Of a DNA stretch of 64,000 bases, positions 14,767 to 53,371 are shown piece after piece; the first letter of the stretch is position 1; each line of letters starts with the position of its first letter. The notes under the pieces are model-generated. The model was not told the DNA's origin. It did not search any database and saw only the letters and a list, made by a program, of their open reading frames with translations. The position numbers and the translations under genes were made by a program. The stretch spans positions 24,397 to 88,396 of the forward strand of contig JACQPG010000064.1 in NCBI GenBank assembly GCA_016207665.1. Reading direction: 5' to 3'. This DNA is from Elusimicrobiota bacterium (GTDB lineage: Bacteria; Elusimicrobiota; Elusimicrobia; UBA1565; UBA9628).

Positions 14767-15357
14767 TCAAGCCTTGATTGGCTTTTTTTCGCGGGATACT
14801 ATCCACCGGGAGGCTTGAGAAAGGTCGCGAAACGCCCGATCAGGGCGGATCCGGAAAGCCCGATCCCGCCCACCCTTGCCCGTCTTGACCAGCAAGGCGG
14901 CGCAACCCGCGTTGCGCGCGGCGCGGATGTCGGTGGTCGTATCCCCCACCAGATAGCAGCGGGCAATATCCAGCTTGAATCGCCTGGCGGCCGCCTTGAG
15001 CATCCCGATGGCGGGCTTGCGGCAGGCGCAGGCGCGCTTACGCCCGAATCCGGGATGATGGGGGCAATAGTAGATCGCGTCGATTCTCGCGCCCCTTTGC
15101 CGCAACCTGCGATTCAACAGCCTATGGACGGCGTCGACGCCCGAGCGGCTGATCAAGCCCCGGGCGATCGCCGATTGATTGCTGACCACGATCACCTTGA
15201 GCCCCGCATGGCGCAGCCGGCGGATGGCCGCGGCCGCCCCGGGGATGATCCTGAGCTGGCTGGCTTGGCGCAGATAATGCACGTCCTCGATGATCACGCC
15301 GTCACGGTCGAGGAAAACGGCGCGGGAGCCTTGCAAGCCTCTCATAAGTCGATCCAT
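14767..15357 (-). CDS. gmhB: D-glycero-D-manno-heptose 1,7-bisphosphate phosphatase
   Basis: 196 residues from the ATG at 15357; the frame stays open upstream but that would cross the divergent promoter region. HAD phosphatase with the nucleophile motif FLDRDGVI near residues 14-21, VVSNQSAIARGLI in the middle, and GDTTTDIRAARNAG as the Mg motif. The zinc loop CPHHPGFG followed by CACRKPAIGM is diagnostic for GmhB. It removes the 7-phosphate between the HddA and HddC steps. It heads the operon that carries hddA, hddC and gmhA 6-9 kb downstream, so all four GDP-heptose genes share one transcription unit. Confidence 0.85.
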   Translation of the reverse strand: MDRLMRGLQGSRAVFLDRDGVIIEDVHYLRQASQLRIIPGAAAAIRRLRHAGLKVIVVSNQSAIARGLISRSGVDAVHRLLNRRLRQRGARIDAIYYCPHHPGFGRKRACACRKPAIGMLKAAARRFKLDIARCYLVGDTTTDIRAARNAGCAALLVKTGKGGRDRAFRIRPDRAFRDLSQASRWIVSREKKPIKA

Positions 15358-15388
15358 CGCCAAGCGCCGCTCATGTTCTTTGGATGAA

Positions 15389-15394
15389 ATTATA
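15389..15394 (-). promoter_or_regulatory. Candidate -10 element of the gmhB-led operon
   Basis: The minus strand reads TATAAT here, a perfect sigma70 -10 match, about 31 bases before the gmhB ATG. No convincing -35 lies 16-18 bases upstream. The gap between gmhB and the divergent GT2 gene is only 64 bases, so promoters for both directions must overlap here. Confidence 0.35.
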
Positions 15395-15409
15395 GTTCTT
15401 TGAAAAAGA

Positions 15410-15415
15410 TAAAAT
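15410..15415 (+). promoter_or_regulatory. Candidate -10 element directly before the GT2 start
   Basis: TAAAAT is followed by exactly six bases and then the ATG at 15422. If used, transcription would begin at or next to the start codon. There is no Shine-Dalgarno sequence and no clear -35. The same -10/N6/start spacing occurs at 40263-40275 and, on the minus strand, at 43708-43696 and 40225-40213. Confidence 0.3.
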
Positions 15416-15421
15416 TCCGTC

Positions 15422-16420
15422 ATGGCGCCGTTCTTTTCCATCATACTGCCGACCTACAATCGAGCGCATATGATCGCCAGCGCCCTCGAATGCGTGCGTC
15501 GCCAGACCTTCCGGGACTACGAGGTGCTGATCGTCGACGACGGCTCCGTGGACGACACGCCGGAGGTGATCAAGCGTTGGACCTCGGATCCTCGATTCAA
15601 ATACCATCGCCTGGAGAAGAACATCGGCAACATGCATTGCCGCAACCTCGCCCTGGGCATGGCTACGGGAGACTGGATCACCAATATCGACTCCGACGAT
15701 TTTTGGACGCTCGACAGGCTGGAATGCTTCGCCCGCTATTTCCAGGAATATCCCAACGCCGGCTTCGTGTTCTCCAACGGCTATCTCTACCGCTACGGGC
15801 GAGTCATCGGCATGGCCTTCGATCCGAGCCGCCCCATCCCGGAAGGCCGCGTGCCCGGCCATTACGCGGTCGGGGAGGAGTACCTGCCTTATCTCACGAC
15901 CAACCTCGCCATCCCCCGCGAGCTCTATAGGAAGTACGGGCATTATCGCAAGGACATGGTGATCCTGGACAACGAGCTCTACGCGCGCATGCTCGCCGAC
16001 GGCGTCGAGGTCGGCGTGATCCGCAAGCCCTTGGCGGTTCGGCGCATCCATGGCGGCCAGGTGACGCACAAATGGATCGAGGAGTATCCCGAGGCGGTCG
16101 AGGCCCTGAAAGCCGGGGGAGCGCCGGAGGCCGTCATGGAGCTCGAGCGCGAGAAACTCGTCCATGAGTTCGCCAATTATCTCTGGCGCAACCTGCAGCC
16201 GCGACAGGCCCGTGAATTCATGCTCAAGGAATTGGGGCCCAAGGCGGGGCGGTCCTGGCTTTATCGGCTCACCTATCTTCCCGAACCCGCGCTTGCCGCC
16301 GGGCGCCTGATCAGGCGCTGGTATTTGATGGCTCGCCATCATCCTTGGCTGGCCTCGGCGGAGGTGCGGGAGATCTATGGACTCATCAATCCGCTCATCG
16401 AGCAGGAGCGGACAAGATAG
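15422..16420 (+). CDS. GT2 glycosyltransferase, SpsA/WaaE-like
   Basis: 332 residues. The N-terminal GT-A domain has FSIILPTYNRAHMIASAL at 5-22, VLIVDDGSVDDTPEV at 35-49, and the metal motif NIDSDDFW near 96-103. The C-terminal third is helical and has no evident membrane span. Unlike the GT2s paired with GT39 enzymes, this form usually adds a sugar directly to a growing glycan in the cytoplasm. It is monocistronic, between the head of one minus-strand operon and the tail of another; its last 26 bases overlap the 3' end of the convergent TldD-like gene. No ribosome-binding site is visible. Confidence 0.85.
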   Translation: MAPFFSIILPTYNRAHMIASALECVRRQTFRDYEVLIVDDGSVDDTPEVIKRWTSDPRFKYHRLEKNIGNMHCRNLALGMATGDWITNIDSDDFWTLDRLECFARYFQEYPNAGFVFSNGYLYRYGRVIGMAFDPSRPIPEGRVPGHYAVGEEYLPYLTTNLAIPRELYRKYGHYRKDMVILDNELYARMLADGVEVGVIRKPLAVRRIHGGQVTHKWIEEYPEAVEALKAGGAPEAVMELEREKLVHEFANYLWRNLQPRQAREFMLKELGPKAGRSWLYRLTYLPEPALAAGRLIRRWYLMARHHPWLASAEVREIYGLINPLIEQERTR

Positions 16421-18026
16421 GCGGCCTTTCCGGCCTCATCTCCGACCTTTGAAGCTCGGCGTCATCGAGCAGCAGGCTCGGCGAGATCACCGACATAGGC
16501 GCTCCCAATACGAGATTCTGCACGGCCGGATCGTCTCCCGCCGTGAGTATGCTGTCCATCAGGTCCAGCGGGGTGCCTACCAGATCCAGATCCCGGACCA
16601 GGATGGTCCGGCCGGTCTGCGCCTCCACGAGATATACCTGGCCCGGCACCAAACGGATAGAGCCATGACCCTCCGTGCCCTGTTGCTGCGTGAAATGACG
16701 CAATTGCCTCACCCATAACCCATAGGGCTTTCCGCGCCTGCGGCACTCTTGCCTTAACCGCTCCAGCAGCGAGCTCACCGGAGCCGGCTTCTCCGATCGA
16801 AGGAACAGATTGCCGGGCAACCCTTCGGGCCAATAGCCGGCCATGGATCTTCCATGGCCGTTGGATCTCGGGAATCCGAGCACGGGATAGCGCGACAAGA
16901 GCAGCCCCTGAAGCACCCCTCGCTCGATCAAGGTGGCCGGACGCGGAGGCAGCCCCTGATCGTCCCAGTCGTAATGTCCCGCGAGCTCCACTCCTTGGAA
17001 CCGGCTCCGGGTCGGATCGTCGATGAGGCTCAGTTCCTCCGGAAGCACCAGCCGCCCCAACTTTCCGCGAAACACTTGCGAGCCTCCGGGGTTGCGCTGT
17101 TCCTCCCCCGACAGGCGCAGCGCCACGCCCAGCACCACGGCGGCGGCGACCGAGGGGTCGATGAGGGCTGGAGCGCTGAAAGGCGAGGTGGTCTTGGCCA
17201 AACGCAGCAGCTCCAAGTCCCGAGACATGTCGCCGACCAAGCGCTGCAGGTCCTCGCCGGAAGGCATCGCCTCGGGCGTCCTGAAGACTAGCCTCCTGTT
17301 GGCGAAAAGCCTCATGCCGTCAGCGGCCATATCCACCATATCCAAGGATATCTCGAGGGAGGAGCGGGGAAAGTCGACCTTGCGTCCCTCTGTGTCCCGA
17401 AAGCGGGACCACTGGTGGCGCGCGCGGAAGGAAGCCTCCGTCTGCAGCGCGGGCTTGCGCCCGAAAGCGCGCGCCGCATCCTGGCAGAGGCTCTCGAGCC
17501 GGGCGTAATCCCACGGCATGGCGGGCGGCTCGGCGCGCCACACCTTGACCGACTCCCGGCTTAGATCGTCGGTATCGTATTCGGCCTTGCCGCGCGCGAC
17601 CCTCAGGGCCTGTTTTCGGAGGAATTCCGCGACCGCGGACTTGTACGCACCATCGAGCAAGCGCCACAATTCGTGGCGCAGGCCGAGCTCGTCGTCGTCG
17701 AAGGGCAATTGGCGGGCGACGAAGCCGCTCGAGGGCCCGGTCGGATGATTGTCCAAGGAGTAATCGCCCACGCGCAGATCGGGCGTCACGAAACGTTGGC
17801 GGGCCCGAAGAGCTCCCAAGCGGCCCCCCAGCGAGCACTTGAGCTCCCATGTCTCGAGGTCGATGGCGGTCAGGCTGACATAATACGGGGAAGGGTAACC
17901 CTCGGCCTTCAGCTCGTTTTTGGCGCGCGAAAGCTCCGCCTCCATCGCCCGCTCCAGTCCCGATCCCGCCGCGGGCGCGGCGAGGCACAGCCAAGCCCAC
18001 ATCCCGATCAACGCTTGACGGCGCAT
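16395..18026 (-). CDS. Exported TldD-like protein, metal motif lost (TldE-like partner)
   Basis: 543 residues with an N-terminal signal-like helix (IGMWAWLCLAAPAAGSG). It aligns along its whole length with the protein at 18916-20565: both have a PA[IL][LI]DP segment, GQ/GEEQR, the block GFPRSNGHGRS, and a related C-terminus. In the paralog PAILDP is followed by HEALGH; here the same columns read LGVALR (about 299-304), so both histidines and the glutamate of HExxxH are gone. The late cysteine (FSCGAES in the paralog) is also missing (NLVLGAPM). It is therefore probably a non-catalytic partner, as TldE/PmbA is to TldD. Start at ATG 18026 overlaps the methyltransferase by 19 bases; an in-frame ATG at 18002 is possible. 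Confidence 0.75.
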   Translation of the reverse strand: MRRQALIGMWAWLCLAAPAAGSGLERAMEAELSRAKNELKAEGYPSPYYVSLTAIDLETWELKCSLGGRLGALRARQRFVTPDLRVGDYSLDNHPTGPSSGFVARQLPFDDDELGLRHELWRLLDGAYKSAVAEFLRKQALRVARGKAEYDTDDLSRESVKVWRAEPPAMPWDYARLESLCQDAARAFGRKPALQTEASFRARHQWSRFRDTEGRKVDFPRSSLEISLDMVDMAADGMRLFANRRLVFRTPEAMPSGEDLQRLVGDMSRDLELLRLAKTTSPFSAPALIDPSVAAAVVLGVALRLSGEEQRNPGGSQVFRGKLGRLVLPEELSLIDDPTRSRFQGVELAGHYDWDDQGLPPRPATLIERGVLQGLLLSRYPVLGFPRSNGHGRSMAGYWPEGLPGNLFLRSEKPAPVSSLLERLRQECRRRGKPYGLWVRQLRHFTQQQGTEGHGSIRLVPGQVYLVEAQTGRTILVRDLDLVGTPLDLMDSILTAGDDPAVQNLVLGAPMSVISPSLLLDDAELQRSEMRPERPPILSAPAR

Positions 18027-18919
18027 ATCTCCATGGAGTCCCGGGTGTCAAGATAGAGGAGCTTATCGCCGATATCGAGCCAGCGCACCGCCGCGGACAC
18101 GGAGGCGTGCACGGGCCGGGGATAATGCCGCAGCCGGCTCACCCAATAGGCGTAGGAGAATATCCTCCCGAAAGACTTCACCAGGACCGGCTCCAGACCG
18201 TGGTCTCGGAGCATGCGGCGCATGCTGGACCGGTCGAAGTAGTAGATATGGGCCGGTCTTAATCCCCACCAATAGCCGCGCAAAAGCCGGGCGGAAAGAC
18301 TGCCGATATCCGGCGTGACGAGATAGAGCACGCCTCCGGGACGCAGCCACTCGGCGGCGCGGGCCAAGGCCGCCTTGGGATCGGTCAAGTGCTCGATCAC
18401 GTCGATGAGGGCGATCGCGTCGAAGCTGCCGGCCGGAAAACGAGTGGTCCGCAGGAAATCCTCGGCATAAACATCCAGCCTGAAACGCCGCCTGGCGACC
18501 TCGCAGGCCCACTGGGAGAGATCCAGTCCCGCCACGTCGAAATCCGCCCTCGCCGCGTTGAGGAAATATCCCGTGGCGCAACCGATCTCAAGAAGACGGC
18601 CCGAACCGACGAATCTCTTGATCGTGCGCAGGCTTAGATGCGCGTTGATCGAGCGGCTGGAGCTCTCCGCGAGATAGCTTTCATCGACGCATGCCCCGTA
18701 GCCCTCGGCCAGGCACGCCGCCGAAGGCCTCGGATTGGTGTAGACCAGCCCGCAGTCGAGGCAGCGCACGATCCGGCCATAATCTTGGAACTCGTCGGTG
18801 GTCGCGGCGAACACGGCCGAGTCCTCGGCCCGCGCGGTATAAGGGCGGTCGAAGAGCGCCCGCCCGCCGCGGCTCCCGCAAAGATTGCAGGCCACATCCT
18901 CCAGAAGTGGAAGGCTCAT
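18008..18919 (-). CDS. SAM-dependent methyltransferase with N-terminal zinc ribbon
   Basis: 303 residues. An N-terminal CNLC and a later CLDC form a zinc ribbon (about residues 11-58), followed by the link GLVYTNPRP. The class I SAM domain has LLEIGCATGYFLNAAR near 110-125, then ALIDVIEHLTDP near 172-183. This layout is common among sugar or lipid methyltransferases in glycan loci. The ATG overlaps the TldD-like gene's stop (ATGA) and its 3' end overlaps the second TldD-like gene, so it is translated as a block between the two. Whether its substrate is a glycan or a peptide handled by the neighbours is unknown. Confidence 0.8.
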   Translation of the reverse strand: MSLPLLEDVACNLCGSRGGRALFDRPYTARAEDSAVFAATTDEFQDYGRIVRCLDCGLVYTNPRPSAACLAEGYGACVDESYLAESSSRSINAHLSLRTIKRFVGSGRLLEIGCATGYFLNAARADFDVAGLDLSQWACEVARRRFRLDVYAEDFLRTTRFPAGSFDAIALIDVIEHLTDPKAALARAAEWLRPGGVLYLVTPDIGSLSARLLRGYWWGLRPAHIYYFDRSSMRRMLRDHGLEPVLVKSFGRIFSYAYWVSRLRHYPRPVHASVSAAVRWLDIGDKLLYLDTRDSMEICAVKR

Positions 18920-20565
18920 CGTGTTGACTCCTGCATCGGCGACGGCAGCAGCGGAGGCCGCGCCCGATCCTCGGGCAGGCGCTGCAATTCGACCTCGGAG
19001 ACCAGGACGCTCGGGGCTATCTGAGCCACGGGCACGAAGCCCGATTCAGCCCCACACGAGAAATAATTGGAAAGGGCCGAGTCATCGGCGGCCGCGACGA
19101 TGCGATTGAGAACCACCAGGGGCGTGCCCACCATGCTGGCCCCGCGCACCAAGGTCTTGCGCCCGGTCGAACCGTCCACGCGATAGACGAGCCTCGGCCG
19201 GACCTCCAAGGTCTGGGGCGCCTCGCGGGTGTTGGGATTATCTCCGCCCTGGGCTCCGACCAGCCAAAACCCATAGGCCTTTCCCGCGCGCCGTATCAGA
19301 TCGAGGAGCCTGTTCTCCAGCTCGGGTCTGGAGATTGGGTCCTCCGCCTGAACGACCAGGTTGGCCATGCGTCCGGTAGGCCTTAGCAGGGCGTCGGAGC
19401 GGCCATGCCCGTTGGAGCGGGGGAAGCCCTTGAGAGGCCAACGCGACATCAGAAAATTGATCAATATCCCCTTATCGACCAGGACCACCGGCCTGGCCGC
19501 CACTCCCTCGGAGTCGAACTCGTAATGGCCGTGCAGGGGAACCCCTCGGAATTGCGCCAGGGTGGGATCGTCCCAGAGGCTGAGAAATTCCGGTATGATC
19601 CTCTTGCCGATCAAGTCCCGGAAGACCTGGCTCTGCCGCGGCTCCCTTTGCCTCTGGCCCTCGAGCTTATGGCCCAAGGCCTCATGAAACAGCACCCCCG
19701 TGAATTCGGGATCCAGTATGGCCGGCGCGGCCATGGGAGCCTGGATGGGAGCATGCCTCAAAACCGCGAGCGTGCGGGCCATGTCCCGCGCCTTGGCCTC
19801 CAGCGCCTCCACGGCGGGAAGATCCTCAAGATCGCGAATGGACCAGCTTTCTTGCTGCTCAAGCCTCATCCCATCGTCGCTACGGGTAACGGCCGTCAGG
19901 GCCAGCGAGCCCGGCACATGCTCCTCCGGCGTGGCGATTCGCGTGCCCTCGCTGGTCAAGAGCAAGCGCCTGGACCCTCTCAGCCTCAACGAAGCCCGGC
20001 TATCCTGTATCTCTGGAAACTCCAAGAAAACCTTCGAGACCCTTTGCACCAGGCTTCTCGCCCGATCGTGATCGAAACGCGCGGGCGGTTGCGCCCGCGC
20101 GTGTGCCGTCGCCGGCTCGATCGAGAAGTCGTCCAAGGGCTGCTGGACGAAATCCACCATACGTCGCGCCTTTTTCTCCAAATAGCCGGCGACGGCGCTC
20201 TTATAGGCCGCGTCGGTAAGCGACCAGAGACTTTGACGCAAAGCCCGGTTCTCCAAGGGGGCGGCCGAGTGCCAGCCTTGGAAGGCCAGCTCAGTGTTGT
20301 CGAAGTGCCTGTCTCCGTAACGCAGCTCAACGAACAAGGTCCTGGCCGAATCGTCGTATTCGTTGAGCAGATCGCCGAAATATCCGTTGACCTCCAGGCG
20401 CCTTTCGTCGACCAGCCGATAAGCGAGGAAATAGGGCGGACCGAACGGCTTTTGCCTCAAGCTGGTCATGGAGCGTTTCATCTCGGCCTGCATCTGCGAA
20501 AAGGCGGCCTCGTCCGAGGCCCTGGCCGGAGCGATCAAGAAGAGAAGGACGATGAACGCCCGCAT
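18916..20565 (-). CDS. Exported TldD-like metallopeptidase with intact HExxxH
   Basis: 549 residues from the ATG at 20565, four bases after the upstream stop. A short signal peptide (MRAFIVLLFLIAPARAS) suggests export, whereas canonical TldD is cytoplasmic. The zinc motif is HEALGH (H294, E295, H299) followed by KLEG, as in TldD (HEAxGHxLE). A C-terminal FSCGAESGFVPV block matches the TldD region that supplies a cysteine ligand and the conserved VPV. Known TldD/TldE heterodimers cleave modified peptides such as microcin B17. The paralog two genes downstream has lost these residues. Inference: an extracytoplasmic TldD/E-like complex acting on a peptide or glycopeptide made or modified by this operon. 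Confidence 0.75.
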   Translation of the reverse strand: MRAFIVLLFLIAPARASDEAAFSQMQAEMKRSMTSLRQKPFGPPYFLAYRLVDERRLEVNGYFGDLLNEYDDSARTLFVELRYGDRHFDNTELAFQGWHSAAPLENRALRQSLWSLTDAAYKSAVAGYLEKKARRMVDFVQQPLDDFSIEPATAHARAQPPARFDHDRARSLVQRVSKVFLEFPEIQDSRASLRLRGSRRLLLTSEGTRIATPEEHVPGSLALTAVTRSDDGMRLEQQESWSIRDLEDLPAVEALEAKARDMARTLAVLRHAPIQAPMAAPAILDPEFTGVLFHEALGHKLEGQRQREPRQSQVFRDLIGKRIIPEFLSLWDDPTLAQFRGVPLHGHYEFDSEGVAARPVVLVDKGILINFLMSRWPLKGFPRSNGHGRSDALLRPTGRMANLVVQAEDPISRPELENRLLDLIRRAGKAYGFWLVGAQGGDNPNTREAPQTLEVRPRLVYRVDGSTGRKTLVRGASMVGTPLVVLNRIVAAADDSALSNYFSCGAESGFVPVAQIAPSVLVSEVELQRLPEDRARPPLLPSPMQESTR

Positions 20566-20569
20566 CGGC

Positions 20570-22186
20570 CTAGCGCAGCTCCCAGATCTCGGCAAGGACA
20601 GTCCCGGAATCGGAGAAGGCGCGCACCAGCACGGCCTTATCGGCCAGAAAACGCTTGAGCTCCGCGTCGGAGCCGATGGCGGGCGAGTTCATGATCACGA
20701 CGGTACCCCTGCTCTTCTCCATCCGCGCCATCAAGCTCGGCATCTCTCCCGCGTCATAGAGGAAAGAATCCACCTTCATCCCGGCCTTCTGACAGGCCAG
20801 CGCGCCGTAACCGTGCAGATAGATCGGGGGCTTGACTCCGGGGCTGGAAAGCGCGGCCAGGACCTCTCGGCCGGTCCTGTCGAGGTCCGGGGAAAGCGCG
20901 GAGTAGGTATATTCCACCGAATAGAACAGCGAATACGCCAAACCCAGGCCGATCAACGAGGCGCGGGCCTTGGCGCCGCGCAGGGCCAGAGCGGCGCACG
21001 CGATGAAGGCGAAGAGAACGGCCGCCGGCTTGACGTAGAACGAGAGCGAGGGCCCGAAGAATATCCGAACGGGCAAGAATCGGAAAAGCCCCTCCCAAGA
21101 TCCGTTCAACCGAGGATGTATCGGCTGCACGGAATAGGAGCCTGCCCACGTGAGCAAGGCCAAGACCGCCATAAAAGCCGCGCTCCAGGCAGCCGCGCGA
21201 GCCGCCTCGCCGCGTTCGATCGAGGCCGCGGTGATGATCGCCAGCAAAGGCAGCACGGCGGTCCAATAGATCACCAGCTTATGGGGATTGAGAAGCAGGC
21301 ATATCCCGGCCATGTAAACCAGGCACAACCAGAGCGGAAGGGCGAGCCTTCTCCGACTCTCCTTGGAAATCAGGCCTGAGACCAGGCCCCAGCAGAACAA
21401 AGGGCCCATGAAAATGAGGGCCTTGGAAAAACTGTTGAGATAAAGCCTAAGGCCGGCCGGCGTGGACAACGATCCCAGCCGCGCGGCCATGCCCTCCAGA
21501 GTGCCGCCGCCCTTGCTCAAGGCGAGCTGGAAGTGTCCGGGAAAGGACACGGCGTAGATAGAGAACATCGCCAAACCCACGGCAAAGATGAACCCCATGG
21601 CCATGGCGGCCCGCTTCGCCCCTCTTTCTTGGGCGCAGTGCGCGGCGATGGCCACAAGCACTAAGCTCGCCGATAAACTGGAAAGCCACAGCAATCCGAA
21701 GCAAAGTCCGGCCAGAACCAAGGACCCCAGGCTCCCGCCTTCCAACCAACTCCAGTAGAACCAACAGAGGCCGCATACCAGCAAGGCGAAAACCGCTCCA
21801 TAGATATCGAGTTGCGCCGCGACGAAGACGCTCCAGGGACTGAGCGCGAGCAAGCCAGCGGCCCAAAGCCCCTTCTCCGTTCCCAGAAGGCGCCGGCCAA
21901 GAATCCACGTGAAACCCAGGGTGCCCAGGCTGAAGAGGAACGGCACCAGCCTGAGCCATTCCCAACCGAACACAGCCATGCCGGCCTTGAGCAGGAGTCC
22001 GAAGAGTATTGGCTGCCCGTTTCCCCGAAAGGTCCCCACGGGGGCGAGAGCCTCCCGCACGAAAAAATCGTCGTCGCCGAAATACGGGTAATCCAGCAAC
22101 GGCGCGCGCAGGGCCAGGAAGGCCGCCAGCGTCGCGAGAAAGCCCAGCAGGGGCCCCCGCCTCAGAATATGTTCTTGAGCAGGCAC
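20570..22186 (-). CDS. GT39-like polytopic membrane glycosyltransferase
   Basis: 538 residues from a GTG at 22186 that overlaps the end of the GT2 gene by 25 bases; longer frames lie wholly inside that gene. The first loop carries DYPYFGDDDFFVREALAP (four acidic residues near 30-36), then GNGQPILFGLLLKAG. This is the GT39/ArnT-like arrangement. Around eleven membrane spans and a soluble C-terminal domain of about 110 residues. It is tightly paired with the dolichyl-phosphate-sugar-type GT2 upstream and followed after four bases by the exported TldD-like gene, so its acceptor might be a protein or glycopeptide. That last point is speculation. Confidence 0.7.
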   Translation of the reverse strand: MPAQEHILRRGPLLGFLATLAAFLALRAPLLDYPYFGDDDFFVREALAPVGTFRGNGQPILFGLLLKAGMAVFGWEWLRLVPFLFSLGTLGFTWILGRRLLGTEKGLWAAGLLALSPWSVFVAAQLDIYGAVFALLVCGLCWFYWSWLEGGSLGSLVLAGLCFGLLWLSSLSASLVLVAIAAHCAQERGAKRAAMAMGFIFAVGLAMFSIYAVSFPGHFQLALSKGGGTLEGMAARLGSLSTPAGLRLYLNSFSKALIFMGPLFCWGLVSGLISKESRRRLALPLWLCLVYMAGICLLLNPHKLVIYWTAVLPLLAIITAASIERGEAARAAAWSAAFMAVLALLTWAGSYSVQPIHPRLNGSWEGLFRFLPVRIFFGPSLSFYVKPAAVLFAFIACAALALRGAKARASLIGLGLAYSLFYSVEYTYSALSPDLDRTGREVLAALSSPGVKPPIYLHGYGALACQKAGMKVDSFLYDAGEMPSLMARMEKSRGTVVIMNSPAIGSDAELKRFLADKAVLVRAFSDSGTVLAEIWELR

Positions 22187-22836
22187 AGGAAGAAACGGTG
22201 CCCGATCTTCCAGGGGCTGATCTTGGACACACCGTATTTGCGGGCGTATTCGTGCGTGGGCACGTTCACCACGCGGAAGCCGCGCTTGAGGCATTTCATG
22301 ACCATCTCATGCTCGACCGCCGCGGAACTCTCCACCAAACCCAGGCCGCGCGCCACTTCGGTCTTTATGGCGCGATAGCAGTTCAAGGTGTCGGTTAGAT
22401 TCGCGTCCCAGCGCCAATTGATGACGCTATTGATGAAGATATTCCCGGCGGTCCTGAAGAGCTGCATGAAATTGACGCTGATCTCGTCGCTGCCGCCGCT
22501 GTAGCGACTGCCGATGACCATATCCGCCCGGCCCTCGATGATCGGGGCGACCAGGGCGTCCCACTGAGCCACGTCGTCGGACCCGTCCGCGTCCATGAAC
22601 ACGACGATGTCCCCGGAGACGGCCTCGATAGCCTCCCTCTGCGCCGCTCCCTTGCCGCGGCCGCTGTCGCACAAGAGCTTCGCCCCGTGGGAAAGGGCGA
22701 TCTCGGGAGTCCTGTCCTTGGAATGGCCGTCCATGACTATCAGCTCCGATGCCTTGCCCTTGACGGCCCCCAGCACCTCGCCCAGAGTATTTTCCTCGTC
22801 CTTGGCGAATACCACTATCGAGACTTTAGGAGGCAT
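22162..22836 (-). CDS. GT2 glycosyltransferase, polyprenyl-phosphate sugar synthase type
   Basis: 224 residues, ATG at 22836 overlapping the SDR gene end by 11 bases. Motifs: VSIVVFAKDEENTLGEVL at 5-22, LIVMDGHSKDRTPE at 32-45 and the metal site FMDADGSDDVAQW near 79-91, followed by IGSRYSGGSDEI. DGHSKD in place of the common DDGSxD marks a particular dolichyl-phosphate-mannose-synthase-like subgroup. The C-terminal HRFFLCLLKNIF is hydrophobic and may dip into the membrane. It should load a sugar on polyprenyl phosphate for the GT39 enzyme encoded immediately downstream. Confidence 0.8.
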   Translation of the reverse strand: MPPKVSIVVFAKDEENTLGEVLGAVKGKASELIVMDGHSKDRTPEIALSHGAKLLCDSGRGKGAAQREAIEAVSGDIVVFMDADGSDDVAQWDALVAPIIEGRADMVIGSRYSGGSDEISVNFMQLFRTAGNIFINSVINWRWDANLTDTLNCYRAIKTEVARGLGLVESSAAVEHEMVMKCLKRGFRVVNVPTHEYARKYGVSKISPWKIGHRFFLCLLKNIF

Positions 22837-23809
22837 GGATATTTCTCCGATACCAATCGATGGTGCGTTTGAGGCCTTCGCGCAACGGCACTCGGGCCTG
22901 GAAACCCGCCTTGAGCCTGGCCTTGGCGGTGTCGCAATTGCGCCGCGCCTGTCCCGAGGGCTTGGAGGGGTCGAATCTCACCTTGGCGCCGGAGCCGCAC
23001 AGCTCCCGCACCAGCGCCACCAGGTCGCGGATCGAGATCTCCTCGTCCGTTCCCAGGTTCACGGGGTCGCATTCCGCGTACCTCTCCGTGATCTCCACGA
23101 GGCCCCGGGCGAAATCCTCGACGAACAAGAAAGCTCGGGTCTGGGAGCCGTCGCCCCAGACCGTCACAGGGTCCTCGCCCGAGACGAATCTGCGTATCAA
23201 GCTGGGGATGACATGAGCCGAGTCCTCGTCGAAGCGGTCTCGCGGCCCATAGCAATTGTAAGGCCGCACTATCGCCGAACGAAGCCCGAACTCCTTGCGC
23301 ATGGCCATGGCCTCGTACTCCGCCATACGCTTGGCCCAGCCATAACCGTCGTTGGCCTGGTCCGGGCAACCGGAGAACCCCTCCGATTCGGGGGTCGGGA
23401 TGGTGCAGCCCGAGGGATAGACGCAGGCCGAGCTGACCACCAGCACTCGCTCGACCCCGGCCTTCTGCGCGGCCTCCAAGATGAAGCTTGTCATTCGGAC
23501 GTTCTCGCGGAACATCGTTGCCGGATGCGCCTGATTATAGGCGACCCCCCTGACCCGGGCGGCCAGATGCATCACCACATCCTGCCCCGAGCACAATCCA
23601 TCGCATTGCCGCGGATCACCCAAATCCACTTTCTCCACCTTGATCCGATCTGCTACGGCCGCTAGATTGTCCGGGCCGCTGTGCGAGAAATTGTCGGCCG
23701 CCGTCACCCTTGCGTCCTTGCCGGCGGCCAAAAGCTGCTCGATCAAATGGCTGCCCACGAAGCCGGAGCCGCCCGTGACGAGAACCTTCTTGCCGTCCCA
23801 AAATGACAC
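22826..23809 (-). CDS. GDP-fucose/colitose-synthase-like SDR epimerase-reductase
   Basis: 327 residues from a GTG at 23809, seven bases after the dehydratase stop; a longer frame has no sensible N-terminus. Rossmann motif VLVTGGSGFVGSHL near 9-22, HLAARVRGVAYN, SSACVYPSG with a downstream YGWAKR (YxxxK), and the substrate block YNCYGPRDRFDEDSAHVIPSLIRR. The last is like the NLYGP.D....SHVIPAL region of GDP-fucose synthase and ColC. It directly follows the His-variant 3-dehydratase. Inference: it epimerises and/or reduces the keto-deoxy-sugar made there. A generic 4-epimerase is the alternative. Confidence 0.7.
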   Translation of the reverse strand: MSFWDGKKVLVTGGSGFVGSHLIEQLLAAGKDARVTAADNFSHSGPDNLAAVADRIKVEKVDLGDPRQCDGLCSGQDVVMHLAARVRGVAYNQAHPATMFRENVRMTSFILEAAQKAGVERVLVVSSACVYPSGCTIPTPESEGFSGCPDQANDGYGWAKRMAEYEAMAMRKEFGLRSAIVRPYNCYGPRDRFDEDSAHVIPSLIRRFVSGEDPVTVWGDGSQTRAFLFVEDFARGLVEITERYAECDPVNLGTDEEISIRDLVALVRELCGSGAKVRFDPSKPSGQARRNCDTAKARLKAGFQARVPLREGLKRTIDWYRRNIHAS

Positions 23810-23814
23810 GGAGC

Positions 23815-25044
23815 CTACCTGCGCCGGAAATAATCGTGGATGCATTCCACGATATAGTCCAAGTCTCGGCGGCTCAGATATTGGTGGCAGCCTATGTAGA
23901 ACGCGCTGCGGTTGAGCCAGCGGGCCACGGGATAGTCCTTCTCAAGGTCACCGTACATCCTCTTATAGACGGGCTGGTTGATCAACGGCATGAGATCCCG
24001 CGTCTCGATATCGTGCTCCTCGAGGAAGTTCACCAGCCCGGTCTTATCCTCGCTGCGCAAGGCCAAACCATACATCATGAACATATGATCCCGGTCAGCG
24101 GGGACGCTGGGCAATTGAAGACGATCCTGAAGATCCTTGAGGCCATCGCTCAACCGCCGGGCGTTGGCCTGGCGGGCCTTGATGATGGCGCCGCGACCCT
24201 CGAACTGGCCCAGTCCTATGGCGGCCTCCAGCTCGGTGGCCCTGAAGCTGTGGCCTACCGAGATAAACGAAAACCTCTTGGCGACTATCTCCTTGAGACG
24301 CTCGCCCTTGACGCCCTGGTCGTCGTCGATGCTGATATAGATCGAATCCCGACCGTGATTCATCAGGCTGCGCAAGCGCACCGCGAGATCGGGCGACTGG
24401 GTGACGGCCAGTCCCCCCACGCCGGTGACTATGTAATGGGCAATGTAGGTCGAAAAACAACCGATATCTCCCATGGAGCCCACCATGCGACCCTTATAGC
24501 GTGCGAACATGGTCTCGCATGAGTCCTCTATGATCTTAAGCCCGCGCTCGCGGGCCAGCTCCAAAATAGGGTCCATGTCGCAAGGCAGACCCAAAAGATG
24601 CACCGGGATGATGGCGCGGGTGCGCGGGGTGACGCGTCTTTCCAAGAGCGTTGGATCGAGATTATAGGTGGCCTTGTCCACGTCGACGAAGACAGGCTTC
24701 ATGCCATTGTGCAGCACGATGTTTGATGTGGCGACGAAGGTGACCGCCGGGACCAGCACCTCGTCGCCGTCCCGCCATCCCTCTTGCTCCTTGAGGGCCG
24801 CCAGGGCCACATGAAGGGCGCTGGTTCCCGAATTGCAGAAAAGCCCGAATCGGCACGAGTGGGCCCGGGCGAATTCCTCCTCGAAGCGGCGGGTCAGGGG
24901 CCCATAGGACAAACGGTTGGAGGCGATCACCTGCCGCAGATATTTCTTCTCCCTGGCTCCCAGCACGATGCCGCCGACGCCGATTTGGCTCTTAAGGCCG
25001 GCTGGGCGGGATGGGCGCGGGGTTTTCACGGGCGCGATTGTCAT
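23815..25044 (-). CDS. DegT-fold sugar 3-dehydratase (ColD-like, His in place of catalytic Lys)
   Basis: 409 residues from the ATG at 25044; the open frame continues upstream but overlaps the divergent SDR gene without homologous content. PLP-fold signatures: NSGTSALHVA near 71-80, EDSCETM at 173-179, and CFSTYIAHYIVTGVGG at 196-211. The Schiff-base Lys column holds His203. Loss of this lysine to His, with ED.CE.M, is the hallmark of GDP-4-keto-6-deoxymannose 3-dehydratase (ColD) and related 3-dehydratases, which remove the C3 hydroxyl instead of transaminating. The C-terminal IGCHQ also recalls ColD (VGNHQ). gmd, which makes the ColD substrate, is in the window at 51504. A CDP-sugar 3-dehydratase is the alternative. 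Confidence 0.75.
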   Translation of the reverse strand: MTIAPVKTPRPSRPAGLKSQIGVGGIVLGAREKKYLRQVIASNRLSYGPLTRRFEEEFARAHSCRFGLFCNSGTSALHVALAALKEQEGWRDGDEVLVPAVTFVATSNIVLHNGMKPVFVDVDKATYNLDPTLLERRVTPRTRAIIPVHLLGLPCDMDPILELARERGLKIIEDSCETMFARYKGRMVGSMGDIGCFSTYIAHYIVTGVGGLAVTQSPDLAVRLRSLMNHGRDSIYISIDDDQGVKGERLKEIVAKRFSFISVGHSFRATELEAAIGLGQFEGRGAIIKARQANARRLSDGLKDLQDRLQLPSVPADRDHMFMMYGLALRSEDKTGLVNFLEEHDIETRDLMPLINQPVYKRMYGDLEKDYPVARWLNRSAFYIGCHQYLSRRDLDYIVECIHDYFRRR

Positions 25045-25065
25045 TTTCCGCCAAAATGGTAACAT
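25038..25065 (+). promoter_or_regulatory. Candidate promoter of the SDR/propeller-TlpA operon
   Basis: TTGTCA (25038-25043), a 16-base spacer and TAACAT (25060-25065) lie 12 bases before the ATG at 25078. The 5' leader would be about six bases, with no Shine-Dalgarno. The -35 overlaps the start codon of the divergent dehydratase gene. The gap is only 33 bases. Confidence 0.35.
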
Positions 25066-25077
25066 AAAAAAAGTGAA

Positions 25078-26052
25078 ATGACTGAGCGCAGCGGAAGCGG
25101 ATTTTGGACGGCTCAGCGCGTCCTGGTCACCGGGGGCCGGGGGTTTCTCGGCTCGCATGTCGTCGAACGCCTCAAGGCTCTCCGCCCCAAGGTCTTGATA
25201 GTTCCGAGCCGCCGAGACTGCGACCTGACCTCCCTGCCGGCCGTCGAGTCGCTCATCAAAAAGGAAAGGCCCAGCATGGTCATCAACCTGGCCGCTGTTT
25301 GCGGAGGTATAGGAGCCAATCAGGCTGAACCCGGGCGCTTTTTCTACGAGAATATCATCATGGGCGCCCAACTCATGGACGCCTCTCGACGCCTCGGCGT
25401 CGAAAAACTGCTCCAGGTGGGCACGGTCTGCTCCTACCCTAAACATACCCCGGTTCCTTTTGAGGAAGAGTCATTATGGGACGGCTACCCCGAGGAGACC
25501 AACGCCCCTTATGGAATAGCCAAAAAGGCGCTCCTGGTCCAGGCTCAGGCGTATCGGCAGCAATACGGATTCAACGCCATCTATATCATCCCCATCAATC
25601 TCTACGGCCCGGGCGATCACTTCAACCTTAAAACATCGCATGTGATCCCGGCCCTGATTCGTAAATGCGCCACCGCCGCCGAGACCAGCGCTCGCTCCAT
25701 CGAATGCTGGGGAACCGGGAAAGCCACCCGGGAATTCCTCTACGTGGAGGACGCGGCGCGGGGACTCTTGATGGCCGCCGAGCGCTACAATAAACCGGCC
25801 CCGATCAATCTTGGTTTCGGCGGAGAAATCTCGATCAAGGAGTTGGTCGAGCTCATAGCGAAGCTTACTGGCTTCAAGGGAGAGATACTTTGGGATAGCC
25901 GCAAGCCCGACGGCCAGCCTCGTCGGCATCTGGAGGTCTCCAAGGCGCTCAAGGAGTTCGGCTTCAAGGCGGAGACAAGCCTCGAGGAAGGGCTCAAGAA
26001 AACCGTCGCATGGTATCGCAGCCAGGTCAAGGCCGGGGCCTTGACTGAGTGA
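25078..26052 (+). CDS. GDP-L-fucose/colitose synthase-like SDR
   Basis: 324 residues. Rossmann motif VLVTGGRGFLGSHVVERL near 15-32, AAVCGGIGANQAEPG, GTVCSYPKHTPVPFEEE, catalytic YGIAKKA, and INLYGPGDHFNLKTSHVIPALIRK. These blocks match GDP-L-fucose synthase (Fcl/WcaG), a dual 3,5-epimerase/4-reductase, and its relative ColC, a 5-epimerase/4-reductase. The gene diverges from the ColD-like dehydratase across 33 bases. With Gmd it could give GDP-L-fucose; with Gmd and the dehydratase, GDP-L-colitose. Sequence alone does not separate Fcl from ColC. The next gene starts inside its stop codon (TGATG). Confidence 0.8.
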   Translation: MTERSGSGFWTAQRVLVTGGRGFLGSHVVERLKALRPKVLIVPSRRDCDLTSLPAVESLIKKERPSMVINLAAVCGGIGANQAEPGRFFYENIIMGAQLMDASRRLGVEKLLQVGTVCSYPKHTPVPFEEESLWDGYPEETNAPYGIAKKALLVQAQAYRQQYGFNAIYIIPINLYGPGDHFNLKTSHVIPALIRKCATAAETSARSIECWGTGKATREFLYVEDAARGLLMAAERYNKPAPINLGFGGEISIKELVELIAKLTGFKGEILWDSRKPDGQPRRHLEVSKALKEFGFKAETSLEEGLKKTVAWYRSQVKAGALTE

Positions 26053-35085: not shown

Positions 35086-36083
35086 CCCTTCTTGCGCCCC
35101 ACGGCCAGCAGATTGACTCCCACCCCCGGGATAGTCATCTGGTAATAGAGCTTCATCGAAAAGAAAAAGGGGAAGGTCGCCGCATGGAAAAGGCGATGAT
35201 AGAGCGAAACGAGGCGCAGGCGGAGGCTCTTGGCCGGGAGCAGCCGGGCCGCGGCCAGAGAGGACTCGCGCTCCCCTCCGATCAAGTCGGACATGGGAGT
35301 CCCGGCCGAGCCGCGCCCGAAGAGCAGTTTCTTCAGGCTTCTCAATAGGAATGCCGCGGAGCGATCCGCCCAGACACGGGAGAATTCCCAGGTCGGCAGC
35401 CCGCCCGAGCGCAGATCGACCACCTCGAAGCCCTCCCGCTCCAGAAAGGTTCTCAGGGCCTTGGGGGTCCAGCGGCTTAGATGATGCGGGGGATAATCCC
35501 AAAGATCGCGGCCGAAAACGGTAGGCCTGCGATTATCAGGCACGGAGATCAGGAAATAGCCTCCGCCCTTGAGAAGCCTGCGCACTCGCCCGACCGAAGC
35601 GCCGAGATCATCGAGATGTTCAAGCACGTCGAGCAGGGCCACGGCGTCGAATCGGCCCTCGTGCTTCCGGGCGAAGGACTCGTCCAGCACCCCTTCGTGC
35701 ACCGGCCCCTTGGCCCGCGAGCGCGCCAGTTCCAAGAAGCGGCGATCCACCTCCAGCCCCTCGACCTGGAAACCTCGACTCGCCGCATAGTCCAATAGCA
35801 TCCCGGCCGCGCAACCCACGTCCAAAAGAGTCCCGGAGCGGATGGGCAGGCGCGACAAGAGCAGGCGCGCCCGTTGATCGCCTCCGCTGCCGCCGAACTC
35901 CCCGTAGCCGTCCACGTAGTTGAATCTCTCGTACCAATCCTGGCCCGGGAAACGGAAGGGCTCGGCGAATACCAGGTCGCAACCGGAGCAGCGTAATATC
36001 TCATAACGCTGGCCGCTGATGGCGTCGAGATGGGGCTCGAATCCCTCGCCGGAAGCCCCGCACGAAGGGCAAGCCTTCTTCAT
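35082..36083 (-). CDS. SAM-dependent methyltransferase with N-terminal zinc ribbon
   Basis: 333 residues from the ATG at 36083, which overlaps the asparagine synthase stop (ATGA). CPSC at 4-7 and CSGC near 35-38 make a zinc ribbon followed by DLVFAEPF. The class I SAM core has LLDVGCAAGMLLDYA near 91-105 and ALLDVLEHLDDLG near 156-168. C-terminal to it are hydrophobic segments near AATFPFFFSMKLYYQM that may be membrane associated. Layout and size match the methyltransferase at 18008-18919. It is coupled to asnB and probably modifies a sugar or lipid-linked glycan; the atom methylated is unknown. Confidence 0.8.
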   Translation of the reverse strand: MKKACPSCGASGEGFEPHLDAISGQRYEILRCSGCDLVFAEPFRFPGQDWYERFNYVDGYGEFGGSGGDQRARLLLSRLPIRSGTLLDVGCAAGMLLDYAASRGFQVEGLEVDRRFLELARSRAKGPVHEGVLDESFARKHEGRFDAVALLDVLEHLDDLGASVGRVRRLLKGGGYFLISVPDNRRPTVFGRDLWDYPPHHLSRWTPKALRTFLEREGFEVVDLRSGGLPTWEFSRVWADRSAAFLLRSLKKLLFGRGSAGTPMSDLIGGERESSLAAARLLPAKSLRLRLVSLYHRLFHAATFPFFFSMKLYYQMTIPGVGVNLLAVGRKKG

Positions 36084-49907: not shown

Positions 49908-51507
49908 GCGGGCGCCTCTTCGCCTCGGGCCTTCTGAGCAGAAGCGCCCGAACATTGGGCGAGGAAAATCTCTCGATCGGGGCAAAGCCCATCACCGGTT
50001 GCTCCTTGTAAAAAGCGTCCCTCCAGGCCTGATCATAATCATCGCTATGTATCCTGAGCGAGGTCAAAAGCAGCGCATCCGGGGGCAGATGCTTGAATGT
50101 CTTCTCGGCATCCTCCATGGTGGCGGTCAAGGCGATGGCGGTCCTATCCCCCTGCCATACCACGGTGCGATTGGCGTCGGTATAGATGATCTCATCCTCG
50201 CCGACGTGACGCCGCACGAACTCGCCCAACGCCTGCTGATCCCTGTAAAGCGCCTCCCGGCGAGGGCGGCTCTTCCAGTGATCCTTGATCTCGAGGGCCT
50301 CCCGGCTCAAGAACAGGAACGCGAACAGGGCCAGGCCCAGCGCCGGCCGGCTCTTGACCCACGGGACATTCTCGTCGATAAACTTCCAAACGAACAGCGA
50401 CGCGACCAGGCAGAACAAGGGCGCCAATGGATCGAGATAATGCACGGCTCCGTAGCTGATCACCGCGTTGAACGCGAACACGGGCAAGGCCAAGATCCAG
50501 ACCAGACTCTTGAATATCTCCGCGGATGGAGGCTGGGTGAATCGGGTCAGCAGGCTTAATACCACCACGGCCATCAAATAAGGATCGCCGGACGTCTCCA
50601 CGAAGCGATTGATCGCGTAAAGCGGGCCGGTCAGCGCCTTTTGGATGAAATCCAGGGGATAGGCCAAGAACGCCTGGAAACTGGTCAATCCCATGTAGGT
50701 GGTGCTCGATCGGAATCCCGGGAAAGACGGGGACCAGTTAAGCACATAGAATCCCGGAGAATAGAACCATATCCCCGCGGCCGCATGGTTGTAAAAAGAC
50801 AGCCCGATCATGGGCAACGCCAGGCCCGCCAGGAAGAACGCGACTCGGCGCCAGTCCCGCGACAGCCACCACGCGCCCCAAATGAACCCCGGCCAATAGG
50901 ACTGTCCGGCCAGCCGGGTGCAGCAAGCCAGGCCGAGGGCCAGGCCGGCGACCCCATACCAATAGGGCTTCGCCCAGGCCGCCCTTCCCTTCCAAAGAAT
51001 CAGCGCCGCCGCGGTGATGAAAAAGATGAAGGGCGGGTCGGTCAGGGCATGATAATTGCCCTCGATGATCATGAACGCGGACCAAAACAGCGCCACCGCG
51101 GTCAAAGCCTCCCGGCGGCCGCCCACGGCCGACCCTAGAAGAAAAAGCAGCACCCCCGTGCCCAGCGTCATCGAGAAGGCGACGAACAGGGGCACCCAAT
51201 CCGCCAATCCCAGCGCCTTGTAGGCCAGGCCGATCAACAGCGGACCCAGGGGGCCATGATGCAGGAAGAGCACCGGCGGCTTGAATCCCTCAGGGAAAAA
51301 AGCGACCTGCGCCGGCAGCATAAGACGCGTCACCAAGCCCAACCCGCGCCCGAAATTGCGGGCCGGCTCCAGATACCAGATCGGGTCCGCGTCGAAGCCT
51401 ACGAATCGGAACCGGGCGTCGACGGCCCATAAAGCCGCCGCCGTCAGGGCTAGGGCCGCCAGGGCCGTCCAAGCGGCCGGGGACCCCGCGCCGCCGCGGC
51501 GGCTCAC
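49900..51507 (-). CDS. GT39-like polytopic membrane glycosyltransferase
   Basis: 535 residues from the GTG at 51507, which overlaps the gmd stop (GTGA). First loop: GFDADPIWYLEPARNFGRGLG, with the acidic DAD near residues 36-38 and a following HHGPLGPLLIGLAYKALG, the GT39 pattern. About eleven membrane helices, then a soluble C-terminal domain of about 150 residues with EDEIIYTDANRTVVWQGDRTA. Expected to transfer a lipid-linked sugar on the periplasmic side, using a donor made by the downstream GT2. Its position after gmd hints at a GDP-mannose-derived 6-deoxysugar. Confidence 0.7.
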   Translation of the reverse strand: MSRRGGAGSPAAWTALAALALTAAALWAVDARFRFVGFDADPIWYLEPARNFGRGLGLVTRLMLPAQVAFFPEGFKPPVLFLHHGPLGPLLIGLAYKALGLADWVPLFVAFSMTLGTGVLLFLLGSAVGGRREALTAVALFWSAFMIIEGNYHALTDPPFIFFITAAALILWKGRAAWAKPYWYGVAGLALGLACCTRLAGQSYWPGFIWGAWWLSRDWRRVAFFLAGLALPMIGLSFYNHAAAGIWFYSPGFYVLNWSPSFPGFRSSTTYMGLTSFQAFLAYPLDFIQKALTGPLYAINRFVETSGDPYLMAVVVLSLLTRFTQPPSAEIFKSLVWILALPVFAFNAVISYGAVHYLDPLAPLFCLVASLFVWKFIDENVPWVKSRPALGLALFAFLFLSREALEIKDHWKSRPRREALYRDQQALGEFVRRHVGEDEIIYTDANRTVVWQGDRTAIALTATMEDAEKTFKHLPPDALLLTSLRIHSDDYDQAWRDAFYKEQPVMGFAPIERFSSPNVRALLLRRPEAKRRPRG

Positions 51508-52478
51508 GGGCAGCCGCCGCGCTTGACCAGCTCCAGGTCGGATTGGGCCATCATGGCGATCAACTCGTGGAACTTCACCCGAGGCTTCCATTTCAATCTT
51601 CGCTTCGCCAGCGAGGGATCCCCGCAAAGCAGATCCACCTCGGCGGGACGCAAGAGGGCCCGGTCAACCTTCACGTATTTTTTCCAATCAAGCCCGAGCG
51701 CCGAGAAGGCCGCCTCGCAGAGCTCGCGCACGCTATGAGTCTCCCCCGTGGCGATCACGAAATTCTCAGGCCGGCTCTGTTGCAGCATCCGCCACATGGC
51801 ATCGACATAATCGCCGGCGAAACCCCAGTCGCGCTTGGACTCCAGGTTCCCCAAGCGCAATTCCTTGGCCCTCCCCGTCTTGATCATGGCGGCGCCATAG
51901 GTCACCTTGCGCGTGACGTACTCGATCCCGCGGCGCGGAGATTCGTGGTTGAAACAGATGCCCGAGACGGCGAACAACTTATAGGACTCCCGATAATTGA
52001 TGGTCAGGTAATGCCCGTAAACCTTGGATACCGCGTAGGGACTGCGGGGATAGAAAGGGGTGGTCTCCCTTTGCGGGGTCTCGAGCACCTTGCCGAACAT
52101 TTCCGAGGAAGAAGCTTGATAAAAGCGCGTGAGGGGCGATTGGCGCCGCAGGGACTCGAGCAGGCGGGCCACGCCGAGGGCGGTGGCATCCCCCGTGAGC
52201 AGCGGCTGATCCCAGGAGGCCGCCACATAGGACTGCGCCGCCAGGTTATAGAGTTCGTCGGGCTTGACCTTGGCGATGGTCTGGTCGATCGAGACCTGAT
52301 CGGACAAATCCCCGCTGATCAGCTCTATGCGATGCAGGATATGCCGTATGCGCGTGAAGGGATCGTGGCTATAGCGACGCACCAGGCCGTAGACCTTATA
52401 GCCCTTGGATAAAAGCAGCTCCGCGAGATAAGAGCCGTCCTGCCCGGTGATGCCCGTGATCAACGCTTTCTTCGCCAT
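51504..52478 (-). CDS. gmd: GDP-mannose 4,6-dehydratase
   Basis: 324 residues. Extended SDR with the Gmd-specific N-terminus ALITGITGQDGSYLAELLLSKGY at 5-27, LAAQSYVAASWDQP, ASSSEMFGKVLETPQRETTPFYPRSPYAVSKVY with catalytic Ser/Thr, Glu, Tyr and Lys, and FNHESPRRG followed by TRKVT. LGNLESKRDWGFAGDYVDAMW is also diagnostic. It makes GDP-4-keto-6-deoxy-D-mannose, the branch point for fucose, rhamnose, talose, perosamine and colitose. The ATG overlaps the reductase stop (TAATG). The ColD-like dehydratase and fucose-synthase-like SDRs that could use its product lie at 22826-26052. Confidence 0.9.
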   Translation of the reverse strand: MAKKALITGITGQDGSYLAELLLSKGYKVYGLVRRYSHDPFTRIRHILHRIELISGDLSDQVSIDQTIAKVKPDELYNLAAQSYVAASWDQPLLTGDATALGVARLLESLRRQSPLTRFYQASSSEMFGKVLETPQRETTPFYPRSPYAVSKVYGHYLTINYRESYKLFAVSGICFNHESPRRGIEYVTRKVTYGAAMIKTGRAKELRLGNLESKRDWGFAGDYVDAMWRMLQQSRPENFVIATGETHSVRELCEAAFSALGLDWKKYVKVDRALLRPAEVDLLCGDPSLAKRRLKWKPRVKFHELIAMMAQSDLELVKRGGCP

Positions 52479-53371
52479 TAAGAGACTCCTCGACGCGCCA
52501 GATCGGCGCGGCAGCGCCGCCCTAATATGGATAGCGCCTCATCCAAACCCATCATGGGCCGGCCCAGCAAGGCCGCCAATTTCTCGGTCTTGAGGCCGGC
52601 CTGCAGAGGCCGGGCCGCCTTTTGACCCAGCTCCGCGGTGGAGACGGGCTGCACCAGGCCCGGGTCGAGCTCCATGGCCTTGGCCAAGAGAACCGCCAAA
52701 TCGGCCCTATGCGCGCGATCGCGCCCGACCACGTTGATGATGCCGCATTGGCTGGAATCAGCCAGCCGCAAGCTGGTCTCGGCCAAGAACTCGTCCAGGG
52801 TGGGATTGCACCACTGATCCATGGGCGCCCGGAAGACCTGGCCCTCCGATAGGCGCTCGAATATCTGCATGGCGAAATTCTTGGAACGGCGATTCCAGCC
52901 GAATACGGCGGTGGTCCTGATCACCAAGGAATTCGGGGAGCGCGACAAAAGCTCTTGCTCGGCCTCCCACTTGAGCCGTCCGTAGACCGAGATCGGGTGA
53001 GGCGGGTCCTCCTCCCCGTAGGGCCCCGCTCGCCCGTCGAAGACGTAGTCGGTGGAGTAAAGGATCTGCTTGGCGTGCCCGGCCCAATCCAACAGATACC
53101 GGGTCCCCTCGAGGATCACCCCCCGAGCCTGGCTCGGGTCGCTCTCGCAAATATCGACCCCTCCCCGGGCATTGACCCCAACGAAGATCAAGTCGGGCTT
53201 ATGCTCCTTGAGGCAGGCCTTGACGCTATCGGAGGAGGCGACATCCATGAGCACTCCGCCCGGGATATGCCTGGAATAATAGCTCCCCAGGCCCTTCCAC
53301 CCCGCGCTCCTAAGGGCCGCCAACAAGGCATGGCCCACCATCCCCGACGCGCCCACGACCAAGGCCTTCAA
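52478..53371 (-). CDS. RmlD-type 4-keto-sugar reductase (SDR)
   Basis: 297 residues, TTG start at 53371 preceded by GAGGAG seven bases upstream, which decides the start. VVGASGMVGHALLAALR at 5-21, then YSTDYVFDGRAGPYGEEDPPHPISVYGRLKWEAE, the classic RmlD block with the YxxxK pair. RmlD reduces dTDP-4-keto-L-rhamnose, but rmlA, rmlB and rmlC are absent here and the gene is coupled to gmd. Inference: it reduces GDP-4-keto-6-deoxymannose (Rmd-like, to GDP-D-rhamnose or a talose isomer). It could still work with dTDP-sugars made elsewhere in the genome. Confidence 0.75.
   Translation of the reverse strand: MKALVVGASGMVGHALLAALRSAGWKGLGSYYSRHIPGGVLMDVASSDSVKACLKEHKPDLIFVGVNARGGVDICESDPSQARGVILEGTRYLLDWAGHAKQILYSTDYVFDGRAGPYGEEDPPHPISVYGRLKWEAEQELLSRSPNSLVIRTTAVFGWNRRSKNFAMQIFERLSEGQVFRAPMDQWCNPTLDEFLAETSLRLADSSQCGIINVVGRDRAHRADLAVLLAKAMELDPGLVQPVSTAELGQKAARPLQAGLKTEKLAALLGRPMMGLDEALSILGRRCRADLARRGVS

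Follow-up and report, generated by a model that had tools for sequence, protein, structure and literature searches.

The mechanism of the C3-dehydratases E1, ColD and SpnQ has been published, and the cycle of ColD is described as cluster-free and driven by glutamate (PMC8987622). The same cluster-free, glutamate-driven cycle has been described for the C3-dehydratases of Campylobacter jejuni (PMC10440746). In a genome survey of 2020 (PMC7725333), prokaryotes other than the TACK archaea were already taken to contain L-colitose, so that a wide spread of colitose itself would not be new. In RefSeq, the characterised ColD of E. coli O55 (L113:8702-9868) bears the name 'DegT/DnrJ/EryC1/StrS family aminotransferase'.

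In the DNA analysed here, a stretch of 64,000 nucleotides from an Elusimicrobiota bacterium (the window), an open reading frame on the minus strand (25044 to 23815, with the ATG at 25044 and the stop codon at 23815-23817) encodes a DegT-type protein of 409 amino acids. We regard it, with good confidence, as a ColD-like, PMP-dependent and cluster-free C3-dehydratase on the route from a Gmd-made GDP-4-keto-6-deoxysugar to a GDP-3,6-dideoxyhexose. From GTDB genomes, 80 loci with related genes were retained, to which a search for relatives added more; after removal of duplicates the family set comprises 94 members including the window protein, to which the others are 47-75% identical. The gene and the residues discussed below are:

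23815..25044, minus strand: His-type DegT-fold protein, predicted PMP-dependent GDP-4-keto-6-deoxysugar 3-dehydratase (Pfam, NCBIfam, AlphaFold2 model, tree)
24436..24438, minus strand: H203 at the Schiff-base lysine position (codon CAT, 24438-24436; alignments; invariant, 94/94)
24523..24525, minus strand: D174 (invariant, 94/94)
24517..24519, minus strand: C176, equivalent of the E1 cluster cysteine C193, present in ColD too (91/94; alignment)
23884..23886, minus strand: H387 in the motif IGCHQ, the counterpart of GxHQ in ColD, where RfbH has Tyr-Pro (92/94)

Histidine at the Schiff-base lysine position

Profile and fold comparisons place the protein in the DegT superfamily without revealing its reaction. 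Pfam PF01041 (DegT/DnrJ/EryC1/StrS) spans its full length (309.9 bits, gathering threshold 19.8), and no NCBIfam model scores above its cut-off, the top one being RfbH (NF011936, 233.6 versus 423 bits). The original prediction had foreseen that homology pipelines would call the protein an aminotransferase, and this is borne out: Pfam suggests a DegT aminotransferase, NCBIfam yields nothing above cut-off and RefSeq mislabels ColD in the same way. In Foldseek searches with the AlphaFold2 model (pLDDT 92), GDP-perosamine synthase ranked first (TM 0.84 to 3dr4), E1 and ColD matched too, and by E-value the closest PDB folds are the perosamine synthases, which are aminotransferases. Sequence identity follows the same order, with 36% to perosamine synthase (Per), 31% to RfbH and 27% to ColD. 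Per thus ranks above E1 and ColD, but fold similarity cannot tell aminotransferases from dehydratases here.

As had been predicted, H203 occupies the site of the PLP lysine: it aligns without gaps to K186 of Per, H220 of E1 and H188 of ColD, and thus falls on the catalytic histidines of both dehydratases, while the aminotransferase encoded at 3145-4284 of the window, named for comparison, does have its K196, within GKNL. Mutants among the solved structures pinpoint the residue: the Per column shows K in 3dr7 and A in 3dr4 (a K186A mutant), the E1 column H220 in 3bcx and K in 3bb8 (an H220K mutant), and the ColD column, which is the first His of SHH, has its H188 changed to N in 3b8x and to K in 2r0t. 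All 94 family members have His at this position, which excludes a sequencing error or chance. The preceding residue (202) is Ala in 90 members and Cys in four, as against Asn in aminotransferases; E1 likewise has Ala. A lysine at the Schiff-base site, which had been named beforehand as refuting the prediction, was looked for in the alignment and is absent, so that the prediction withstands this test: residues 197-232 of the protein contain no lysine, and across the 94 members no lysine column is invariant, conservation of at least 90% being reached at K85 only. The family therefore lacks the lysine expected of sugar aminotransferases such as Per, ArnB and PseC and has the His expected of 3-dehydratases.

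Around this site, D174 is presumably the aspartate which contacts the ring nitrogen of PLP, as we would expect of fold-type I enzymes. The motifs EDxCExM and GxHQ are common to the family and ColD; the match that had been claimed holds as a resemblance, the window protein reading EDSCETM and IGCHQ where ColD reads EDNCESM and VGNHQ, and not as identity.

A third lineage of His-type DegT enzymes

In an IQ-TREE phylogeny, the His-type DegT enzymes form one group separate from the Lys enzymes (support 98/94), within which ColD and RfbH pair (97/85), the family makes up a branch of its own (100/100) and L103 is placed by itself as a singleton. After removal of the motif columns, the SH-aLRT support of the His group is lower, at 92, and that of the family is 99; constraint tests on the same columns do not reject trees in which the family is forced together with ColD or with RfbH alone (p-AU 0.25 each). 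By this phylogeny, the family is a separate, third lineage of predicted lysine-less DegT dehydratases beside ColD and RfbH. The ColD-like assignment of the original prediction is supported as regards the kind of enzyme, a C3-dehydratase like ColD, E1 or SpnQ; membership in the ColD subfamily is not, given the low identity to ColD and the separate clade. An independent origin of the His from a perosamine synthase was considered, prompted by the top raw identity of Per, but the tree unites all His enzymes, so that a single origin of the His is the simpler reading, even if support drops to 92 once the motif columns are left out.

The hosts comprise Elusimicrobiota, Omnitrophota, Planctomycetota, Chloroflexota, Acidobacteriota, Gemmatimonadota, many CPR lineages and DPANN archaea; Limnoglobus roseus (L012) is a member in culture. 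In phage and plasmid collections no close relative of the family was found, all matches lying below 60% identity, and the best among the matches listed at about 36%. CPR bacteria and DPANN archaea generally lack LPS, and colitose is known mainly from LPS. It is conceivable, and we propose it tentatively, that this lineage supplies GDP-3,6-dideoxy sugars to the surface glycans of CPR and DPANN organisms and has arrived at a cluster-free mechanism independently of ColD.

This wide-ranging and highly conserved family goes unrecognised in current annotation, which says aminotransferase, also for E. coli ColD. Should our reading be true, many polysaccharide clusters annotated for amino sugars would produce 3,6-dideoxy sugars instead, some of them in archaea and in ultra-small bacteria, and the family would represent a third natural case in which replacement of Lys by His converts transamination to dehydration, whether an iron-sulfur cluster is present or not.

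Gene context, predicted reaction and alternatives

The genes of the window which bear on the substrate and fate of the product are:

25078..26052, plus strand: SDR1, candidate Fcl/ColC-like epimerase-reductase, divergent from the DegT gene (NF047922, PDB matches, residues, orthologues)
22826..23845, minus strand: SDR2, second Fcl/GME-like SDR, beginning inside the 3' end of the DegT gene (NF047922, PDB matches, residues, adjacency)
51504..52478, minus strand: Gmd, GDP-mannose 4,6-dehydratase or a GDP-heptose dehydratase homologue (TIGR01472, identity to E. coli Gmd)
52478..53371, minus strand: RmlD/RMD-like 4-keto reductase beside gmd (TIGR01214, 155.9 bits, under the cut-off of 224)
22162..22836, minus strand: GT2 polyprenyl-phosphate glycosyltransferase-like, downstream in the DegT-SDR2 run (PF00535, AglJ-like)
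20570..22294, minus strand: PMT/ArnT-like membrane glycosyltransferase (PF13231, 29.9 bits, cut-off 26.1)

SDR1 matches the GDP-L-fucose synthase model NF047922 with 300.8 bits (under its cut-off of 500), has GDP-L-fucose synthases as top PDB matches and retains C109, Y136, K140 and H179 of Fcl, with Thr in place of Fcl S107; its orthologues adjoin DegT genes in other phyla. SDR2 scores 188 bits with the same model, finds Fcl and GDP-mannose 3,5-epimerase among its PDB matches, retains equivalents of the same four Fcl residues and adjoins DegT in nine other loci. Gmd lies marginally under its cut-off (411.5 versus 415 bits), is 47-49% identical to E. coli Gmd and is located 26 kb from the DegT gene, not adjacent to it. 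One ManC-like gene, far under cut-off, is found elsewhere in the genome. As the cluster holds flippase-like and many methyltransferase genes besides the GT2 and PMT/ArnT-like ones, the sugar is probably destined for a surface glycan.

Some further observations concern the layout of the window. The divergent start codons of DegT and SDR1 are 33 bp apart (25045-25077), so that their promoters, if any, overlap coding sequence or each other. At 16395-20595 on the minus strand, two long paralogue-like open reading frames (543 and 559 amino acids), TldD/PmbA-like by eye, flank a methyltransferase gene. An asparagine-synthase-like amidotransferase near the XrtA/PEP-CTERM type (36080-37990, minus strand; 633 bits, cut-off 817) has relatives directly upstream of DegT in loci L125 and L127.

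Across the family, unbiased clustering of the neighbouring genes puts GDP-mannose 4,6-dehydratase at the top, followed by an Fcl-like SDR. The gmd gene adjoins DegT in 27 of 93 loci, co-directional every time, and an Fcl/ColC-like SDR of the SDR1 type does so in 15 (of the SDR2 type in nine). When gene order was shuffled within loci in 200,000 simulations, 26 loci with adjacent gmd were observed versus 8.7 expected and a simulated maximum of 20, a probability which shared descent makes optimistic, though the loci span many phyla; for the SDR1-type gene, 15 loci compare with 3.8 expected. Full gmd-DegT-fcl-like trios occur for example in L010 (Omnitrophota), L015, L020 (a Burarchaeum archaeon) and in L045 and L048 (Parcubacteria), and the same gmd/fcl-like gene set is found on alphaproteobacterial plasmids around homologues of ColD with about 60% identity. 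In the nearest relative with a full flank (L120), DegT is paired with an RmlD-like reductase, not with Fcl, and this reductase is a relative of the RmlD/RMD-like one of the window.

The histidine, its conservation, the clade, the missing E1 cluster cysteines and the gmd/fcl linkage are what the sequences show; the reaction, its substrate and end product and the part played by glutamate are inferred. The gmd/fcl context supports GDP-4-keto-6-deoxymannose as substrate. Glutamate would turn PLP into PMP, which would condense with the C4 ketone of the GDP-4-keto-6-deoxysugar made by Gmd to give a ketimine; H203, replacing the Schiff-base lysine, would abstract the proton at C4' and the hydroxyl at C3 would depart; hydrolysis would yield PLP and an enamine, ending as GDP-4-keto-3,6-dideoxysugar and ammonia. 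An Fcl/ColC-like SDR, either SDR1 or SDR2, would epimerise and/or reduce this compound, and the outcome would be a GDP-3,6-dideoxyhexose, for example L-colitose, for a surface glycan. The tests at the level of sequence (the His, Ala-202, clustering with ColD and RfbH also without the motif columns) all agree with a C3-dehydratase; counting against the ColD-like reading are the identities, just 27% to ColD and 36% to Per, the perosamine synthases as closest PDB folds, the 26 kb between gmd and DegT in the window and the fact that gmd is not adjacent in the majority of the 93 loci.

Candidates for the end product are L-colitose, some other 3,6-dideoxyhexose and a 3,6-dideoxyheptose. For the last, the same chemistry would act on GDP-6-deoxy-4-keto-heptose, as in C. 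jejuni HS:5/HS:11, where the enzymes are a Gmd-type dehydratase, a PLP-dependent C3-dehydratase, a C5-epimerase and a C4-reductase (PMC10440746), and four genes in the glycan cluster of the window might supply GDP-heptose:

6006-6608, minus strand: gmhA-like
6584-7291, minus strand: hddC-like
7288-8418, minus strand: hddA-like
14767-15444, minus strand: gmhB-like

However, the hddA and hddC models score far under their cut-offs (169.7 versus 600 and 64 versus 300 bits), the C3-dehydratases of C. jejuni share 62-67% identity with ColD, which places them in the ColD branch (PMC10440746), and among the initial set of loci, GHMP and NTP-transferase genes were matched in L103 only, which lies outside the clade. 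Heptose genes seldom occur in the vicinity of other members of the family, for which reason we favour a hexose and consider a heptose product unlikely.

A C4 aminotransferase working through bound PMP, without an internal aldimine, seems improbable to a still greater degree. Such a reading would agree with the perosamine synthases being nearest among solved sequences and folds, and the His enzyme SpnQ does transaminate if its reductase is absent; ColD and E1, however, do not transaminate without a reductase, and E1 H220K did so only non-catalytically (PMC8987622). The His fixed throughout the family, the missing Asn before it and the clustering with dehydratases in the tree also argue against it.

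We take the [2Fe-2S] cysteines of E1 to be C193, C251, C253 and C261, as counted along the E1 sequence from the published C-X57-C-X1-C-X7-C spacing. Equivalents of C251, C253 and C261 are missing throughout the family, which has HGRDSIYxSIDDD where E1 reads GRDCxC...NTC, and the C193 equivalent alone is retained; ColD, too, keeps this single cysteine (EDNCES) without having a cluster. With three of the four cysteines missing, a cluster-free cycle of the ColD type, driven by PMP and glutamate, is expected. That the protein is instead an E1/RfbH-type dehydratase dependent on an external electron donor is very hard to credit: RfbH is its top NCBIfam model, albeit under cut-off at 233.6 bits, and the protein retains C176 as well as an insert at the site of the E1 cluster, but the other three cysteines are replaced family-wide, gmd and not CDP-glucose genes is the neighbour, and the same genome has a bona fide RfbH.

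This genuine RfbH (L002:1501-2703; G000:C19:38365-39567) scores 688.7 bits against the cut-off of 423 and contains the cluster cysteines, so that two kinds of His-type dehydratase coexist in the genome. Another His-type DegT protein (FSTYIAHIITTIEGG) is encoded in an elusimicrobial genome (L103:1501-2685, also L130:7777-9042), preceded by GHMP-kinase-like and NTP-transferase-like genes. Alone on the tree, it has a cysteine-rich insert, HGRACQCEVCVLNTGQAEFC, unlike that of RfbH or ColD, and it possibly binds another type of metal centre.

Comparison with known systems

GDP-perosamine synthase (3bn1, 3dr7) is the closest PDB entry by sequence (36%) and fold and presumably shares the GDP-sugar substrate, yet it has Asn-Lys where the family has Ala-His, and it transaminates C4. 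E1/RfbH (AscC, DdhC; CDP-4-keto-6-deoxyglucose 3-dehydrase, 3bcx), 31% identical, has in common with the family the Ala-His at the lysine site, the C193 equivalent and an insert at the same place; the family differs in that three of the four cluster cysteines are gone, gmd and not CDP-sugar genes is nearby and the score lies under the RfbH cut-off. The GDP-6-deoxy-4-keto-heptose C3-dehydratases of C. jejuni HS:5/HS:11 share the predicted reaction and the partner enzymes, and differ in belonging to the ColD branch (62-67% to ColD, PMC10440746) and in their heptose substrate. ColD (E. coli O55; 2gms, 3b8x) resembles the family in the catalytic His at the lysine site, the lack of a [2Fe-2S] motif, the EDxCExM and GxHQ motifs and the association with genes for Gmd and for an Fcl/ColC-like SDR, whereas the family, 27% identical to it, forms a separate clade, has another insert after HGRD and is widespread in the genomes of CPR bacteria and DPANN archaea.
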